From assembly GCA_035653615.1 (NCBI GenBank), contig DASRBN010000001.1, forward strand, positions 62,001 through 126,000: a stretch of 64,000 nt of DNA, given 5' to 3'. Source of the stretch: Ktedonobacteraceae bacterium. GTDB lineage: Bacteria; Chloroflexota; Ktedonobacteria; Ktedonobacterales; Ktedonobacteraceae. Below are positions 24,618 through 49,652 of this stretch, one piece after another. Each line of letters begins with the position of its first letter. Position 1 is the first letter of the stretch. The notes under the pieces were generated by a model. That model saw nothing but the letters and a program-made list of their open reading frames with translations, ran no database searches and was not told the origin of the DNA. Position numbers and translations under genes: made by a program.

Positions 24618-24646
24618 ATTATACGGTTTTAATTGTAACCTGTCAA
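24618..24646 (-). promoter_or_regulatory. Full-consensus promoter (TTGACA-17-TATAAT) with spacer dyad
   Basis: On the minus strand TTGACA (24646-24641), 17 bp, TATAAT (24623-24618). The spacer starts GGTT and ends with AACCG, giving an imperfect dyad (GGTT-ACAATTAA-AACC) that could bind a repressor. A promoter this strong in front of a small unknown membrane protein suggests that it is normally held down. Confidence 0.85.
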
Positions 24647-24684: not shown

Positions 24685-24726
24685 GCACGGCCCGGAAGCC
24701 GATTTCAGGCTGTTTCCGGGCCGTGC
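24685..24726 (-). terminator. Hairpin after the VWA gene
   Basis: GCACGGCCCGGAA (24685-24697) pairs perfectly with TTCCGGGCCGTGC (24714-24726). The loop can extend the stem with GCC/GGC. It starts 30 bp after the VWA stop in its direction of transcription, followed by GCAATGTTTAAAA, a weak T-run. Probable terminator of the pspA-VWA cluster. Confidence 0.7.
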
Positions 24727-24755: not shown

Positions 24756-25412
24756 CTATTCGATCATATGGAAGAGCGCGTTAGCAATCTTTTCGGGGTC
24801 GGTCTCGCCCCCAAATGACATCACCTTGACGTGCGCATTTTGCGCCTCGACCTGCTGGTAGGCTCGCAGCGCCCGGTCGTGTTCGGGTCCATAGCCAATA
24901 ATCGCCAGCACCACGTACATGCTCCCTGCTGCTCGTGCCACCGTACTCTGGAAGGTATCGGTATCGTCAGCCTCACCATCGGTGATAACGAGGGCTAACA
25001 GGAGCGGGCGTTCTGCCGCCGGTTCCGACCCGAATTCATCGGTATAGGTCTTGAGCAACTGGTTGAAGCCCGGCATGATGCGTGTTCCACCGGCCCAGCG
25101 AATCTGGCTCCACTTCTGCTGCAAGTTATTGGGATTCAGATCACCGATATCGAATGCCCGTCCATCGGCGAACGTGACGGTGCGCAGGCCGCCGCCTTCT
25201 TCCTCCTTCGCGGCCTGGCTATCGGCCGCGGCCAGGCGAGCCACGATAATACTGATTGCCTCTCGGATGGTATCTTTGCGTGGCGTCGGATCGTTCTCTG
25301 AAGTACCGTAATTCATAGAACCCGTCGTGTCGAGCAGGAGCATTGGCTCCTTCTCTTGCTCGGTTGGGGCGGGCTGATTTGAGGCTGAATTCGGGCCGCT
25401 ATTCGTATACAT
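24756..25412 (-). CDS. VWA-domain protein with intact MIDAS
   Basis: 218 aa, essentially one von Willebrand factor A domain. The metal site is complete: LLLDTTGSMN (DxTxS), GGTRIMPGF (Thr) and VITDGEADDTD (Asp). No signal peptide or TM is seen, so it is probably cytoplasmic. I chose the ATG at 25412 with AGGAG upstream; an in-frame TTG two codons earlier is too close to it. It is the last gene of a same-strand cluster with a PspA homologue and an unknown repeat-motif protein. Bacterial VWA proteins often serve as docking partners of ATPases or stress complexes. Confidence 0.88.
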   Translation of the reverse strand: MYTNSGPNSASNQPAPTEQEKEPMLLLDTTGSMNYGTSENDPTPRKDTIREAISIIVARLAAADSQAAKEEEGGGLRTVTFADGRAFDIGDLNPNNLQQKWSQIRWAGGTRIMPGFNQLLKTYTDEFGSEPAAERPLLLALVITDGEADDTDTFQSTVARAAGSMYVVLAIIGYGPEHDRALRAYQQVEAQNAHVKVMSFGGETDPEKIANALFHMIE

Positions 25413-25475
25413 ATGCAATTTCTCCTTTTGTCACTTCAGTTTGATGTTATTCTATACCATGCACTACAAACAACA

Positions 25476-25502
25476 TGTACAGGGGCATGGTTTCCCTGTA
25501 CA
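25476..25502 (-). terminator. Hairpin between pspA and the VWA gene
   Basis: TGTACAGGG (25476-25484) pairs with CCCTGTACA (25494-25502). It is followed on the minus strand by TGTTGTTTG. It could be a weak or partial terminator that lowers VWA expression relative to pspA. Confidence 0.5.
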
Positions 25503-25535
25503 TCTAGACGATGAGAAATCCGCGAAGCTGGAAGA

Positions 25536-26294
25536 TCATTCTCCCTTCGAGGATGATTCTGTCAAAAGCCCCTGTTGAGCAGATGGCCCTCCGATTTGCT
25601 GGCGCATGGCGGCCAGTTCCGCTTCGACGTTGTGCTGAGAAGAGATTTGCGCCAGCTGGTGATCGAGGTCGGTTGAGCTACCGCCGCCAAGCAAGCCCTG
25701 ATCGCCAAGCGCGCCGGAATCCAGCAGCGCATCGATGGCATCGGCGCGTGATTGCATCTGTAAGACATGCTCCTGGGCGCGCTGCATGGCTAGATTCATC
25801 TCGGCAGATTCTTTCGATATGCCAGTCGCGACCTCACTGATATGGACAGAGGCTTTTGCCGCCTGGTACTGAGCCTCGACCATCTCTTTCTGAGTGCCAA
25901 AATTCGAGACTCTCTGTTCCGCTTGCTGCACAAGTTGCTCGATTTTTTGGTGTTGCGCCTGGAGTTGCGCAAGTTGCTGCTTGTATCCGTCAACCTGGGC
26001 AGACAACGCCTCCTTACGCTGGAGTGCCAGGCGGGCCAGGTCTTCACGTCCTTGCTGCATGGCCTGCTGGGCCTGCTGTTGCAGGCGATTCTGTTGCGCC
26101 TCAACCTGTGCTTCAAGCAACTCGATATGCTTCTCGTTCTGCACGATGGTTACAAGTCCCTGGCGCAACTGCTGGAGCTGCTCCAATTGTTTGGTGTAGC
26201 TGTAATTGAACACCTCGGCCGGGTCTTCAGCCTTTTGCAAAGCATTTTCAGCCTTCATCCCGGTTACAAATTTCAAATGATCAAACAAACCCAT
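25536..26294 (-). CDS. pspA: PspA/IM30 (Vipp1) family membrane-stress protein
   Basis: 252 aa, almost wholly coiled coil. It starts MGLFDHLKFVTGMKAENALQ, then EDPAEVFNYSY, in line with the PspA/IM30 start (MGLFxRxxxxxxAxxNxxLDKAEDP). Long Gln/Glu-rich helices run to about residue 190, followed by a looser C-terminus. PspA proteins form ESCRT-III-like rods that bind and protect the cytoplasmic membrane. AGAAAGGACAG lies upstream. It is flanked by a VWA gene and an unknown gene on the same strand, probably forming one functional group. Confidence 0.85.
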   Translation of the reverse strand: MGLFDHLKFVTGMKAENALQKAEDPAEVFNYSYTKQLEQLQQLRQGLVTIVQNEKHIELLEAQVEAQQNRLQQQAQQAMQQGREDLARLALQRKEALSAQVDGYKQQLAQLQAQHQKIEQLVQQAEQRVSNFGTQKEMVEAQYQAAKASVHISEVATGISKESAEMNLAMQRAQEHVLQMQSRADAIDALLDSGALGDQGLLGGGSSTDLDHQLAQISSQHNVEAELAAMRQQIGGPSAQQGLLTESSSKGE

Positions 26295-26331
26295 TTGGAA
26301 CTGTCCTTTCTTCTCTGAATATTTACTGGTT

Positions 26332-27690
26332 TTATCTATTGGTATCCTGCTGTTCTCCGCAAACCTCGGAGAGCAGGTCCAGTACGCTACTTTCCGTGGT
26401 TGGTTCGTTCGGAGGCTGTTTGTGGTCTTCTAAGGGAGACCTTTTCTGCGCAGGCAGGTTAGATGTATTCTGGATGGTATCAGGCCCGGATATTACCTGG
26501 CTTAGCAGGTCGGGAGCGTCAGGAACAGGTGGCGCTGGCGTCTCCTGAACTGCGCCTGGCGTGGCAATCACCTGATTCAACATATTTGAAACATCAGGGG
26601 CCGGTTGTGCTTGCGCGCTCCTGCCTGCCTCAGATTCGGTTACAATCTGGTTCAGCATTTGTGATACATTGGGCGACGGCTGCTCAGGTGGTCTCTGAGG
26701 CACAGCTGGCTCGGCAATCACCGCATTAAACAGATCAGCTACATCCGGTTCGGGCGGTGCAGGTGCTGGCGCAGGAGACACCTGCGGTGTGGGTGAATCA
26801 GGCGGTGCGGGTGTTCTCCTGATTGGTTCCTGGTAGAAATCTTGTTTGTCGTAATTTTGCTGCCTGTAACTTTCTGCTTGGGGAACCTTGTAAGCTGGCC
26901 GCGCATGTAATGCCGGGTTCGCGACCAGCTGGCTTATCTTGAAAAAGCTTTCCATTGCCTCCCAGAGGAATCCCTCGGCTTTATCACTCAGCTCATCCGT
27001 AACCTGCCCCTGGCTGATCTGCCCTACCATATCGATGCCGGTGCGCAGGTGGAAGTCTCCGAGTCGTAATTCGCCTTTCATCTGCTCAAGATGTGCCGAG
27101 ATCGCGGGTGGCACGGGCAATTTGGCCGCATCCAGCGCAAGTTCATATTTCGCCAGCAATCCGGCGGCCCAGTCTCGCATTTCCTGAGCCGCCCCGATGA
27201 TTCCCTGCAAGTGTGGAAGTGGAAATCGCTCGCTCGCGCCCCGGACATGCGGACCGAATGGAAGCGGCAAGGAGTAGGAGAGAGGAATGTAGTCAGGATT
27301 CGACGATGCTTTAATGGCCTCCTCAAGGTATGGCTCGATATGTTCGCACAGTGCCAATGCCTGATCGTAACTCACACGGGGCAAATAGTTCGTAGCGCCA
27401 GCGTTCGCCGTGGCATAGGCTTTCAGCAATTCCTGCACAAATACGATGTTTGTACGGCAGGCGCGCACGAATGCCAGCGCATACCCCATCCTGGCATAGG
27501 CATCCCATGGCGCCATTCCCTGCATGATAAGCGTATCTACTTCGTCGTCGATCTGCTGCCAGACCTCTTCGATCTGGCTTGCCGAGCGTAAATATCCCTG
27601 TATCGTGGCATCGCTCACCTCACCATAGATATTGCTCGCGATGAATCTCTGCAGCCATTGGCCCATATCTCGCTCGATTCTCCTTTTCAT
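26332..27690 (-). CDS. Unknown helical protein with repeated C-terminal short motifs
   Basis: About 452 aa; I do not recognise the family. The first ~270 residues are predicted helical with conserved-looking aromatic and acidic patches (MGQWLQRFIASNIYG, PWDAYARMGYALAFVRACR). The C-terminal ~160 residues are Pro-rich and contain at least four copies of a short motif spaced ~30 residues: VADLFNAVIAEP, VSQMLNQIVTES, VSNMLNQVIATP, APDLLSQVISGP, and a final VLDLLSEVCGE. These look like amphipathic short linear motifs in a disordered tail, as used for docking. ATG choices are 27690 or 27666. pspA starts 37 bp after its stop. Confidence 0.75.
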   Translation of the reverse strand: MKRRIERDMGQWLQRFIASNIYGEVSDATIQGYLRSASQIEEVWQQIDDEVDTLIMQGMAPWDAYARMGYALAFVRACRTNIVFVQELLKAYATANAGATNYLPRVSYDQALALCEHIEPYLEEAIKASSNPDYIPLSYSLPLPFGPHVRGASERFPLPHLQGIIGAAQEMRDWAAGLLAKYELALDAAKLPVPPAISAHLEQMKGELRLGDFHLRTGIDMVGQISQGQVTDELSDKAEGFLWEAMESFFKISQLVANPALHARPAYKVPQAESYRQQNYDKQDFYQEPIRRTPAPPDSPTPQVSPAPAPAPPEPDVADLFNAVIAEPAVPQRPPEQPSPNVSQMLNQIVTESEAGRSAQAQPAPDVSNMLNQVIATPGAVQETPAPPVPDAPDLLSQVISGPDTIQNTSNLPAQKRSPLEDHKQPPNEPTTESSVLDLLSEVCGEQQDTNR

Positions 27691-30452: not shown

Positions 30453-31433
30453 GTGGCCGGGCAATACGATGATAACGTCAAAAAGTTGATCGAGGCGAAC
30501 CCACAAGATTTTGTGGCGCTGGCAGTCAAAGGAGGACAATTCGAGGCGATACTCGATAAAGAACTGAAGACTACCCATATCTTTGCTGACGCTTTGCTCA
30601 AGGTGAGACAAAATGGGAAACCCATGCTGGTGCATTTTGAATTCCAGAGCGGCGAGGATCCTCATATGCCGGAGCGACTCCTGGAATACAATACGCTAGC
30701 ATCGCGGGAACACGATTACTGGCCGGTCTCGTCATGCGTCATTTACTTGAGGAAGGTAAACAATTCGCCAACCTCACCTTTTATTCGCAAGTTACCGGAC
30801 AGCGAAGAGGTGGTAATCTTCCACTTTAAGAGTATAGAACTGGCGAAAATATCAGCAGATGAATTTCTGCAATCGGGTGGGATTGGCCTCTCACCACTTG
30901 TGACGCTGACGCAGGGTGGGACAGAACATAACGTAGTCAGAAAGATGATTGCGGGGCTTCAGTCCTCTGGAAAAACAAATCTACTCGTGATCGCATCGGC
31001 AATTGCGTCACTAGCCTTTGAAGGTAAAAGTGTAGCCGAGCAGGAATGGCTGGAAAGGACATTCGCAATGCTAAACGACACACTACGCAGTACAAAATTC
31101 TATCAAAAAATTTTGAAGGAGGGCCGTGAAGAGGGCCGTGAAGAGGGTCGCGAAGAGGGTCGTGAAGAGGGTCGCGAAGAGGGTCGCGAAGAGGAGCGCC
31201 GGCGAGAGCTTCAATTGCAACGAGATGCGCTGGTAGATATTGTTCGTGACCGCTTCCCGGACCTGGTTCGCCTGTTCAAGAAGCAGGCAGTAACCATCGA
31301 AGATCCGGTACTTCTGATGCACCTGATTGTTAAAATAAGCACTGCGCAAACCGCTGAAGAGGCAGAGCAGCAACTATTCGCCATTCTGCGGCAAGATAGT
31401 GAACACGAAGACGAGCGACGTGAACTACGGTAA
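30453..31433 (+). CDS. Rpn-like PD-(D/E)XK nuclease / transposase-like protein
   Basis: 326 aa, GTG start with AGGAGG nine bases upstream. The N-terminus (DNVKKLIEANPQDFVALAV, then VRQNGKPMLVHFEFQSG and MPERLLEYNTLA) follows the Rpn/YhgA-like family of recombination-promoting nucleases. HFEFQSG would be the E-x-Q/K active-site strand. The middle part is helical. A Gly-Arg-Glu-Glu tandem repeat (residues ~223-246) forms a charged helix before the C-terminal region, which ends as in DUF4351-type proteins. It sits just after the 98-bp palindrome. The start of the aminotransferase gene overlaps its end. Confidence 0.8.
   Translation: MAGQYDDNVKKLIEANPQDFVALAVKGGQFEAILDKELKTTHIFADALLKVRQNGKPMLVHFEFQSGEDPHMPERLLEYNTLASREHDYWPVSSCVIYLRKVNNSPTSPFIRKLPDSEEVVIFHFKSIELAKISADEFLQSGGIGLSPLVTLTQGGTEHNVVRKMIAGLQSSGKTNLLVIASAIASLAFEGKSVAEQEWLERTFAMLNDTLRSTKFYQKILKEGREEGREEGREEGREEGREEGREEERRRELQLQRDALVDIVRDRFPDLVRLFKKQAVTIEDPVLLMHLIVKISTAQTAEEAEQQLFAILRQDSEHEDERRELR
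31119..31190 (+). repeat. Six tandem 12-bp units encoding Glu-Gly-Arg-Glu
   Basis: GAGGGYCGYGAA is repeated six times with only third-position C/T changes, within the Rpn-like gene. The protein reads (EGRE) six times. The unit number can change by slippage while the frame is kept. Confidence 0.95.
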
Positions 31434-47882: not shown

Positions 47883-49652
47883 ATGCTAGTACGTATTCGG
47901 AAAATTACAATTGGGTCATATGGCCTGTGCGCCATCGCGTTGATAGCTCTGGCCGTCATACTCCGGGTGGTGCTGATCGCTCTCGGCTGGCCCCAGCACA
48001 ATAGCGATGAATCGGTTATGGGCTTGATGGCCCTTCACATCGCCAACCGGGGTGAGCTACCCATCTTTTTTTATGGGCAGTCTTATATGGGCGTGATTGA
48101 GGCCTATATGGCCGCGGCGTTGTTTCACCTGTTCGGCGCCTCAGTTTTCACCCTGCGACTCGTTCCATTGCTCTTCTTCACCTGTTTCCTGGCCTGTATG
48201 TACCTGCTAACCAGCCTGCTCTATTCAAAGCAGCTGGCGCTGGTGACGTTGGGATTGCTGGTTCCTGGCTCAAACATTGTGCTGCAAACAGAAGTCGTCG
48301 CACTCGGCGGTTATCCTGAAATGCTGGCATTTGGCGCGCTGGGATTTTTGCTGGCCAGCTGGCTGGCGCTCGCCAACGATCAGTTTGCCGCAGGTCATCG
48401 CCGCTGGCGTTTCTCCCTCTGCTATGCGCTATGGGGACTGGCGATGGGCCTGGGCACCTGGAGCGATTACCTTTTCGTCGTATTTGTGTTCACCTCCGGC
48501 TTGCTGCTACTGGTATTTTGCTGGCGTACCCTGCTGTCTATCAGAGTATGGCCTTTCCTGCTGCTCGGCCTGCTTTTAGGACTGCTACCTGTCATTATCT
48601 TCAACATAACCAATCCGGCGCAGAATTCGTTGGTTACGCTCTTGAGCCTGCATAGCAGAGATCATCGATTGCTGTTGCTGCCTCACCTCTTTGGGCGCTA
48701 TCCATATGAATCCGGCATTGCCGGAACCCTATTAGTAAGTCTGCCTTCCATAACAGGCGCGCCTCCGTTATGCTACGACTCTAGCCTGATCCTCTACGGC
48801 CTGCCCACCATCAATGCATTCCAATGCTTGAACGCAACCTATAATGCCTGGCAGGAGAGCTTTACCCTGCTCTGGAGCATCTTTTTGCTGATCTTGTGGG
48901 CCATTGCCGTGCTGCAAACCCTTGTCATCCTTAACCGGCTCAGGCAGCTTGCTCCCCGGCGCGAACAGCCAGCTGAAACGAGGCGCGCGGTCATACGTCA
49001 CGTTGTCCGCCTGGCGCTGCTTTTGAACGCCGCCCTTTTCTTCATCCAGTTTGTCCTCAGTCCCGTCGCGGCAGTCTTTCCAACCAACGCGCGTTATTTA
49101 ACCGGCCTGCTCGTCTCTACGCCTGCCGTGATTGCTCCACTCTGGAACATATGGTTTGAAAGCGAGAAACCGGCTGCAGCCGGCAGTAATCAAGATTTGC
49201 GGCGGTTTAATGCCGACCGGTTGATGCTTCTTATAGGGAGAGCCGTTCTCCTGCTCGCGGCGCTGGTTCTGTTATGGGGCAGCATCAGCGTCTTTCGAGA
49301 TATACCAACCATCCAGGCCAGCCGCGAGCAAGAAAACTCGCTGATGCACGATCTCCTGCGTATCCACGCCACCCATATCTATACCGATTACTGGACGTGT
49401 TATCGCCTGACCTTTGACAGCAACGAGAAGATCACCTGCGTCGTACTCGACCAGTATCTCTACCGTGGTGACCACGACCGCTACCCGGCCTACGACGGTC
49501 CGGTCCTGGCCGATCCCCACGCGGCCTACGTCTTCGTGCCCAACGCGCCCAACGCGCCCCAGATTCCAGATGTCGAGCGCATGGCCGCCACGAAGGGCAT
49601 ACGCTTGCAACGATTCACGTTCGATGGTATTGTGGTCTTACAACCCATATAG
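47883..49652 (+). CDS. GT39/ArnT-like polytopic glycosyltransferase
   Basis: 589 aa with about 12 membrane segments. After TM1 the loop reads QHNSDESVMGLMALHI, with the acidic pair typical of GT-C transferases, and FFYGQSYMGVIEAYMAA. A soluble C-terminal region of ~110 residues ends the protein. GT-C enzymes move sugars from polyprenyl phosphate carriers on the outer face of the membrane. A second protein with the same layout follows at 50040, and the two are paralogues (DE...GQSYMGVIEAY versus DE...AQPYMGSLEAY). Acceptor unknown. Confidence 0.75.
   Translation: MLVRIRKITIGSYGLCAIALIALAVILRVVLIALGWPQHNSDESVMGLMALHIANRGELPIFFYGQSYMGVIEAYMAAALFHLFGASVFTLRLVPLLFFTCFLACMYLLTSLLYSKQLALVTLGLLVPGSNIVLQTEVVALGGYPEMLAFGALGFLLASWLALANDQFAAGHRRWRFSLCYALWGLAMGLGTWSDYLFVVFVFTSGLLLLVFCWRTLLSIRVWPFLLLGLLLGLLPVIIFNITNPAQNSLVTLLSLHSRDHRLLLLPHLFGRYPYESGIAGTLLVSLPSITGAPPLCYDSSLILYGLPTINAFQCLNATYNAWQESFTLLWSIFLLILWAIAVLQTLVILNRLRQLAPRREQPAETRRAVIRHVVRLALLLNAALFFIQFVLSPVAAVFPTNARYLTGLLVSTPAVIAPLWNIWFESEKPAAAGSNQDLRRFNADRLMLLIGRAVLLLAALVLLWGSISVFRDIPTIQASREQENSLMHDLLRIHATHIYTDYWTCYRLTFDSNEKITCVVLDQYLYRGDHDRYPAYDGPVLADPHAAYVFVPNAPNAPQIPDVERMAATKGIRLQRFTFDGIVVLQPI

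Follow-up and report, generated by a model that had tools for sequence, protein, structure and literature searches.

The HEL-PspA-VWA locus

Three genes lie on the minus strand of the 64,000-nt stretch of Ktedonobacteraceae DNA analysed here (hereafter, the window), in the order HEL, PspA, VWA (Table 1). The first encodes a protein without a family assignment, which we call HEL, the second a PspA/IM30 protein and the third a VWA protein, so the description in the first-pass annotation of three same-strand genes is confirmed. The gap between pspA and vwa is 117 bp if VWA starts at TTG 25418, or 123 bp if it starts at ATG 25412. The latter is probably the true start, since AGGAG, read by eye, lies directly upstream. 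The inverted repeat in this gap does not fold unusually well (z -1.66; 13 of 200 shuffles fold equally well), and the longer one after the VWA gene may mark where the unit ends. A perfect TTGACA-17-TATAAT promoter-like site (window 24618-24646, minus strand) is found upstream of a DUF3592 gene (24556-24209), which is therefore probably outside the unit. Elsewhere in the window, the protein encoded at 30453-31433 has consecutive EEGREEGREEGR repeats and matches no Pfam family at 0.001. We regard the HEL, PspA and VWA genes as one real unit, pairwise linked in other lineages and presumably co-transcribed.

Table 1. Features of the HEL-PspA-VWA locus (window coordinates)
Feature	Residues	Position	Strand	Remarks
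HEL gene		27690-26332 (26332..27690)	minus	452 aa, no known family; N-terminal domain helical, Pro-rich tail disordered
HEL N-terminal helical domain	1-263	26902..27690	minus	part common to other HEL proteins
HEL Pro-rich tail	264-452	26335..26901	minus	18% Pro after residue 255; bears five motifs
Tail motif 1, PDVADLFNAVI	315-325	26716..26748	minus	
Tail motif 2, PNVSQMLNQIV	340-350	26641..26673	minus	
Tail motif 3, PDVSNMLNQVI	365-375	26566..26598	minus	
Tail motif 4, PDAPDLLSQVI	390-400	26491..26523	minus	
Tail motif 5, SSVLDLLSEVC	434-444	26359..26391	minus	weakest copy
PspA/IM30 gene		26294-25536	minus	starts 37 bp after HEL
10-bp perfect inverted repeat		25475..25503		between pspA and vwa; read by eye
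VWA gene		25418-24756	minus	MIDAS residues; likely start ATG 25412
MIDAS motif DTTGS	30-34	25317..25331	minus	from 8-protein alignment
13-bp inverted repeat GCACGGCCCGGAA/TTCCGGGCCGTGC		24685..24726		3' of VWA gene; by eye; without T run; absent from the scan's list

The HEL protein and its tail

HEL has no match in Pfam, NCBIfam or PADLOC up to an E-value of 1, nor in PHROG up to 0.01. AlphaFold2 models residues 31-260 as a helical bundle (block pLDDT about 70-96) and the tail as mostly disordered (pLDDT < 50), in keeping with the initial description of a helical protein of no recognised kind. Searching the PDB with this model by Foldseek gave no match at E 0.001 or better, and the best VIA-align hits (Z 8.8, 5.2 A rmsd, 143 aligned) were helical bundles of no consistent kind; the same was true of a HEL relative (L065, best Z 8.6), and the HEL profile retrieved a single match among PDB sequences, at E 0.91 only. 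A missing fold match does not show novelty. The N-termini of the HEL proteins tried have hydrophobic moments of 0.51-0.71, i.e., they are amphipathic, a survey of little weight because it had only one control.

The motif copies in the tail are 11 residues long, are spaced by 25, 25, 25 and 44 residues, and end in an amphipathic, LLxxVI-like stretch. The five copies counted in the first-pass annotation hold up as a set, with a score of 123 versus 79 +/- 7 in 500 shuffles of the tail, none of which exceeded 103. However, the P-[DN]-[VA] head is present in only four of them, being absent from the fifth copy (SSVLDLLSEVC). Where two copies share a residue, the codons for it are identical in 0-67% of cases (ten pairs, few codons each). 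No orthologue with a tail of the window type was found.

VWA and PspA

The VWA protein matches PF00092 at E 6.5e-4, with 20.4 bits (cut-off 23.8), and is thus a diverged VWA; this family is matched at E 0.1 or better by 6 of the 8 VWA proteins aligned. Its MIDAS reads DxTxS...T...TDG, made up of D30, T32, S34, T112 and T146-D147-G148 (220-aa frame), and these residues are invariant in 8/8 aligned proteins. The MIDAS is complete, as first annotated, in that every metal-site residue is present, with Thr at the first Ser of the DXSXS consensus. Compared with its own homologues, the window VWA is not unusually diverged, with 58-70% identity to six of seven and 48% to the VWA of G102. By profile, this VWA was found in 8 of 400 Chloroflexota genomes (a rerun centred elsewhere gave 7 of 399, all among the 8), and in 3 of the 47 genomes of the class, one of these being a fragment. 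It was not found in plasmid and phage records, and the profile had no match among PDB sequences. Relatives of the VWA are present on six IMG/VR viral contigs (L131-L136), which carry no HEL, PspA or array.

The window PspA matches PF04012 at 6.2e-25 (88.5 bits, cut-off 33.9). PspA is found in 43 of the 47 class genomes, and the genome under study has another copy on contig C36 (G000:C36) with neighbours resembling those in G020, G021 and G035, so the window PspA looks like an extra copy. It is the second, diverged copy in the genome. The hydrophobic moment of the N-terminus is 0.43 for the window copy and 0.63 for the C36 copy. A PspA tree left the window copy unplaced, on a long branch with unsettled bootstrap.

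HEL relatives and their neighbours

HEL is present in 7 of the 47 genomes of the class, all listed as the same order, at 8 places including the window. A contig search with the single window HEL protein gave no match; a profile search gave 7 loci, all among these. The same-order proteins have 39-50% identity over the matched part and 32-38% overall, and carry a conserved C-terminal domain where the window protein has its Pro-rich tail. The tail motifs, which the first-pass annotation had expected to be conserved, are therefore not a feature of these relatives. Nor is a PspA or VWA gene found near the seven other same-order places, within the 4.9-21 kb covered, some contigs being short.

In the 400 Chloroflexota genomes, the profile detects HEL in 15 (12 with an earlier profile), and narrower searches found it in 2 of 110 genomes of the class of G250 and in 2 of 7 of the class of G094. 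The 16 places in the 400 comprise three beside PspA (G000, which is the genome of the window, G114 and G250) and five adjoining or clustered with VWA (G000, G012, G047, G069 and G094). Both partners are present at one place, the window, and neither at nine: seven of the window's order, G245 and G061. The last has a VWA-type gene of another type about 2 kb away and is counted among the nine. Thus, the trio was not found in relatives, but its pairs, HEL-PspA and VWA-HEL, recur in distant Chloroflexota.

In the first of these pairs, HEL is directly upstream of PspA on the same strand, at a distance of 37 bp in the window, 16 bp in G250 and 33 bp in G114. The G250 HEL is the 248-aa domain alone, followed by a PspA-PspAA fusion, whereas the G114 HEL retains the C-terminal domain and is followed by a fusion of the same type, its PspA being detected by tblastn. 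The HEL-linked PspA of both genomes carries the PspAA domain (PF22743); a PspA-PspAA fusion is reported for Chloroflexi in the accessible text of a PSP survey (PMC11237479). In G404, which is not one of the 400, HEL is split between contigs: one contig ends inside it, leaving its C-terminal end immediately ahead of pspA, and its start closes another contig.

In the second pair, VWA is directly upstream of a HEL gene, which has an array tail in G047, G069 and G094 and is decayed in G012; the gene order of the window differs from this. In the window's order, the VWA-HEL locus at L050:7153-8032 is decayed, which points to a formerly intact pair in that order. HEL and VWA occur together in 5 of the 400 genomes, for which P is 1.9e-6, or 5e-4 without the window's own genome and G012, under the assumption of independent draws, which genomes are not. 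In all five they are in one cluster.

Outside Chloroflexota, the HEL domain with a C-terminal domain is encoded on Chroococcidiopsis and Leptolyngbya plasmids (3 plasmid records), among universal-stress and metal-transport genes. Two such cyanobacterial homologues (L137:7980-9230 and L138:7986-9236) have a C-terminal domain of the CPWAPIY type and lie in a cluster with universal-stress, P-type ATPase and glucan phosphorylase genes.

Motif arrays beside VWA

The tails next to VWA in other genomes contain arrays of a motif, [LMI]P[DEAVTQ]I, in eight copies in G078, four each in G102, G094 and G069, and three in G047; the decayed HEL of G012 has two. The residue after the proline, the third of the motif, is acidic in 19 of the 25 copies, G012's two included, and not acidic in 6. 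The gene that follows VWA in G078 and G102 encodes an array ([LMI]P[DE]I; eight copies in the former, four in the latter) with no HEL domain detectable by profile. No shuffle out of 10,000 reached the observed count in any of the five intact arrays, a test that is not independent because the pattern was drawn up with these tails in view. A self-similarity score was not significant for G069, G047 and G102 (reached by 26/100, 53/100 and 16/100 shuffles, respectively), and is a weak test here since Pro runs dominate the score.

Among 5,314 locus ORFs (loci > 3 kb; ORFs of at least 60 aa, those of 700 aa or more being left out; overlapping loci counted repeatedly), an array of at least three copies was found in five distinct proteins, all directly after VWA. 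The window itself has a 589-aa ORF at 47883 with three scattered matches to the pattern. The nine VWA genes of the eight genomes comprise five with an intact array next to them, one with a decayed array, that of the window with its own tail type, and two with none (G027:C477 and G094:C260). By contrast, neither G114 nor G250 has an array in the HEL protein beside PspA. A Fisher test of array versus no array gave 1.6e-4 for 5 proteins beside VWA against 12 without, a value that predates the G078 array, includes related rows that are not independent, and excludes the window, whose motif differs, and G061, whose VWA is of another type. The array pattern has 0 matches in the window HEL tail.

The array proteins without a HEL domain (L108:3375-4112 and L109:4463-5002) share a similar N-terminal segment, GWVKAP...EWVDSMAEVVDG, possibly a further partner domain. 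Cys-rich proteins that look similar by eye are also encoded near VWA in G078 (L108:964-1632) and near the VWA-type gene in G061 (L111:633-1343); the former has no Pfam match at 0.01.

Comparison with known systems

The PSP systems, including those with PspA-PspAA, resemble the window in having a PspA/IM30 gene with co-directional partners, as far as the accessible text of PMC11237479 describes them, but the partners it names include neither HEL nor this VWA. A Pfam scan of HEL, VWA, the DUF3592 protein and 10 flanking proteins found no PspB, PspC, PspF, PspAA, PspAB, Lia or Toastrack, so the window differs from the canonical PSP operon types in having none of their partner genes among the scanned neighbours. 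The term vWA is absent from the main text of two PSP surveys (PMC11237479, PMC9239133) and of an ESCRT survey (PMC10936438). The vWA-MoxR ternary (VMAP) systems, in the accessible text of PMC7159879, also place a vWA next to a helical, architecturally variable partner; PspA is not mentioned in the main text. Unlike these, the window VWA is a 220-aa protein without an added effector domain, and no MoxR/AAA+ gene is found among the 10 flanking proteins scanned.

Integrin I domains, and the Rea1 MIDAS with Rsa4 and Ytm1, offer a likeness in the VWA-type metal site and in candidate ligands that present D or E (PMC6624252, accessible text). There, the sixth ligand of the metal is a D or E contributed by the MIDAS ligand. 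The difference is that the putative ligands here would be repeated short motifs in disordered tails. Full-text searches of the open-licence literature, also by the accessions of the cyanobacterial HEL homologues, listed no paper on such a unit, which agrees with the initial remark that no system of this composition had been described.

ESCRT adaptors are helical proteins that bind an ESCRT-III-like protein, and the window resembles this in layout only. The absence of a Foldseek PDB match for HEL neither supports nor excludes such kinship.

HEL as a possible bridge between PspA and VWA

In the relatives, the HEL domain goes with PspA and the array goes with VWA; the window protein, having a HEL domain and a repeat tail, therefore joins both. 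These relatives, in which the pairs exist apart, suggest that HEL links PspA and VWA. The gene linkage of the pairs is well supported; binding is what we infer from it. The best-supported mechanism is that HEL is a bridging scaffold, the tail of which gathers several VWA molecules onto PspA at the membrane, a reading we hold tentatively, at a little short of even chances. The helical domain would work with PspA at the membrane, while the disordered tail would display five short ligand motifs and gather several VWA molecules, most likely by Mg2+-dependent binding to their MIDAS. At a stressed membrane, the PspA coat would then become a platform dense in VWA domains, and the clustered domains might hold or present further clients. 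The part assigned to the acidic residue, the triggering by membrane stress and the function of VWA are all presumptive. The P-[DN]-[VA] of the window copies may be the same core as in the array motif, the rest of the motif being different. Counting against the scaffold are the occurrence of the whole trio in the window alone, the absence of the array pattern from the window tail despite a VWA of ordinary divergence, the six array copies without an acidic third residue, the VWA genes with no array beside them (the two named above and those of the six viral contigs), and the nine HEL places with neither partner.

The first-pass annotation had left it open whether the motif binds PspA or VWA, and this interpretation is partly supported. 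VWA is favoured, as the arrays adjoin VWA, and PspA is disfavoured, because HEL is found beside PspA in G114 and G250 without any array. The alternative in which PspA is the target of the tail motifs, these being helical ligands of its polymer, and VWA is a separate partner can draw on the amphipathic ending of the window motif, which is unlike the array motif elsewhere, and on the fact that only the window joins such a tail with a PspA neighbour. We consider it quite unlikely, since to the array-less HEL proteins beside PspA must be added the five distinct arrays of at least three copies, 5/5 of which are directly after VWA, with no PspA in the DNA covered at those loci.

It could also be that two functional pairs are neighbours by chance, with VWA a later passenger that is driven by a promoter of its own and does not work with HEL. 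In line with this, the unit has its longest gap (117-123 bp), with an inverted repeat in it, before VWA, the gene order is unlike that of the VWA-HEL pairs elsewhere, and the trio was not found twice. However, the clustering of HEL and VWA in 5/5 genomes holding both, and the absence of the window's repeat tail from the aligned same-order HEL proteins, make a passenger unlikely. Finally, HEL may be a stress-type protein of unrelated function, its tail a low-complexity linker and the repeats the remains of a short internal duplication. This would account for the regular spacing of the first four copies, 25 residues apart, and would suit the cyanobacterial plasmid homologues, which lie among universal-stress and metal-transport genes. 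It is nonetheless very improbable, as the copies have diverged in DNA yet kept the motif core, and arrays with another motif recur beside VWA.

With the bridging scaffold as the preferred reading, the locus could represent an undescribed docking module, in which a free-standing MIDAS VWA and a ligand-array protein are brought onto PspA coats via the HEL domain, a generalisation that is possible but about which we have considerable doubt. On this view, this VWA would usually be paired with an array, whether or not a HEL domain is attached to it, and PspA would repeatedly have the HEL domain as its partner. Such a module would amount to an adaptor in bacteria by which integrin-like domains are clustered on a polymer resembling ESCRT-III.

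If HEL does bridge PspA and multivalent VWA, bacteria would have an adaptor logic of this kind that is testable with purified proteins. The VWA-array pair, apart from PspA, would make a new and simple model of how a MIDAS recognises peptides within bacterial cells, the location being presumably cytoplasmic.
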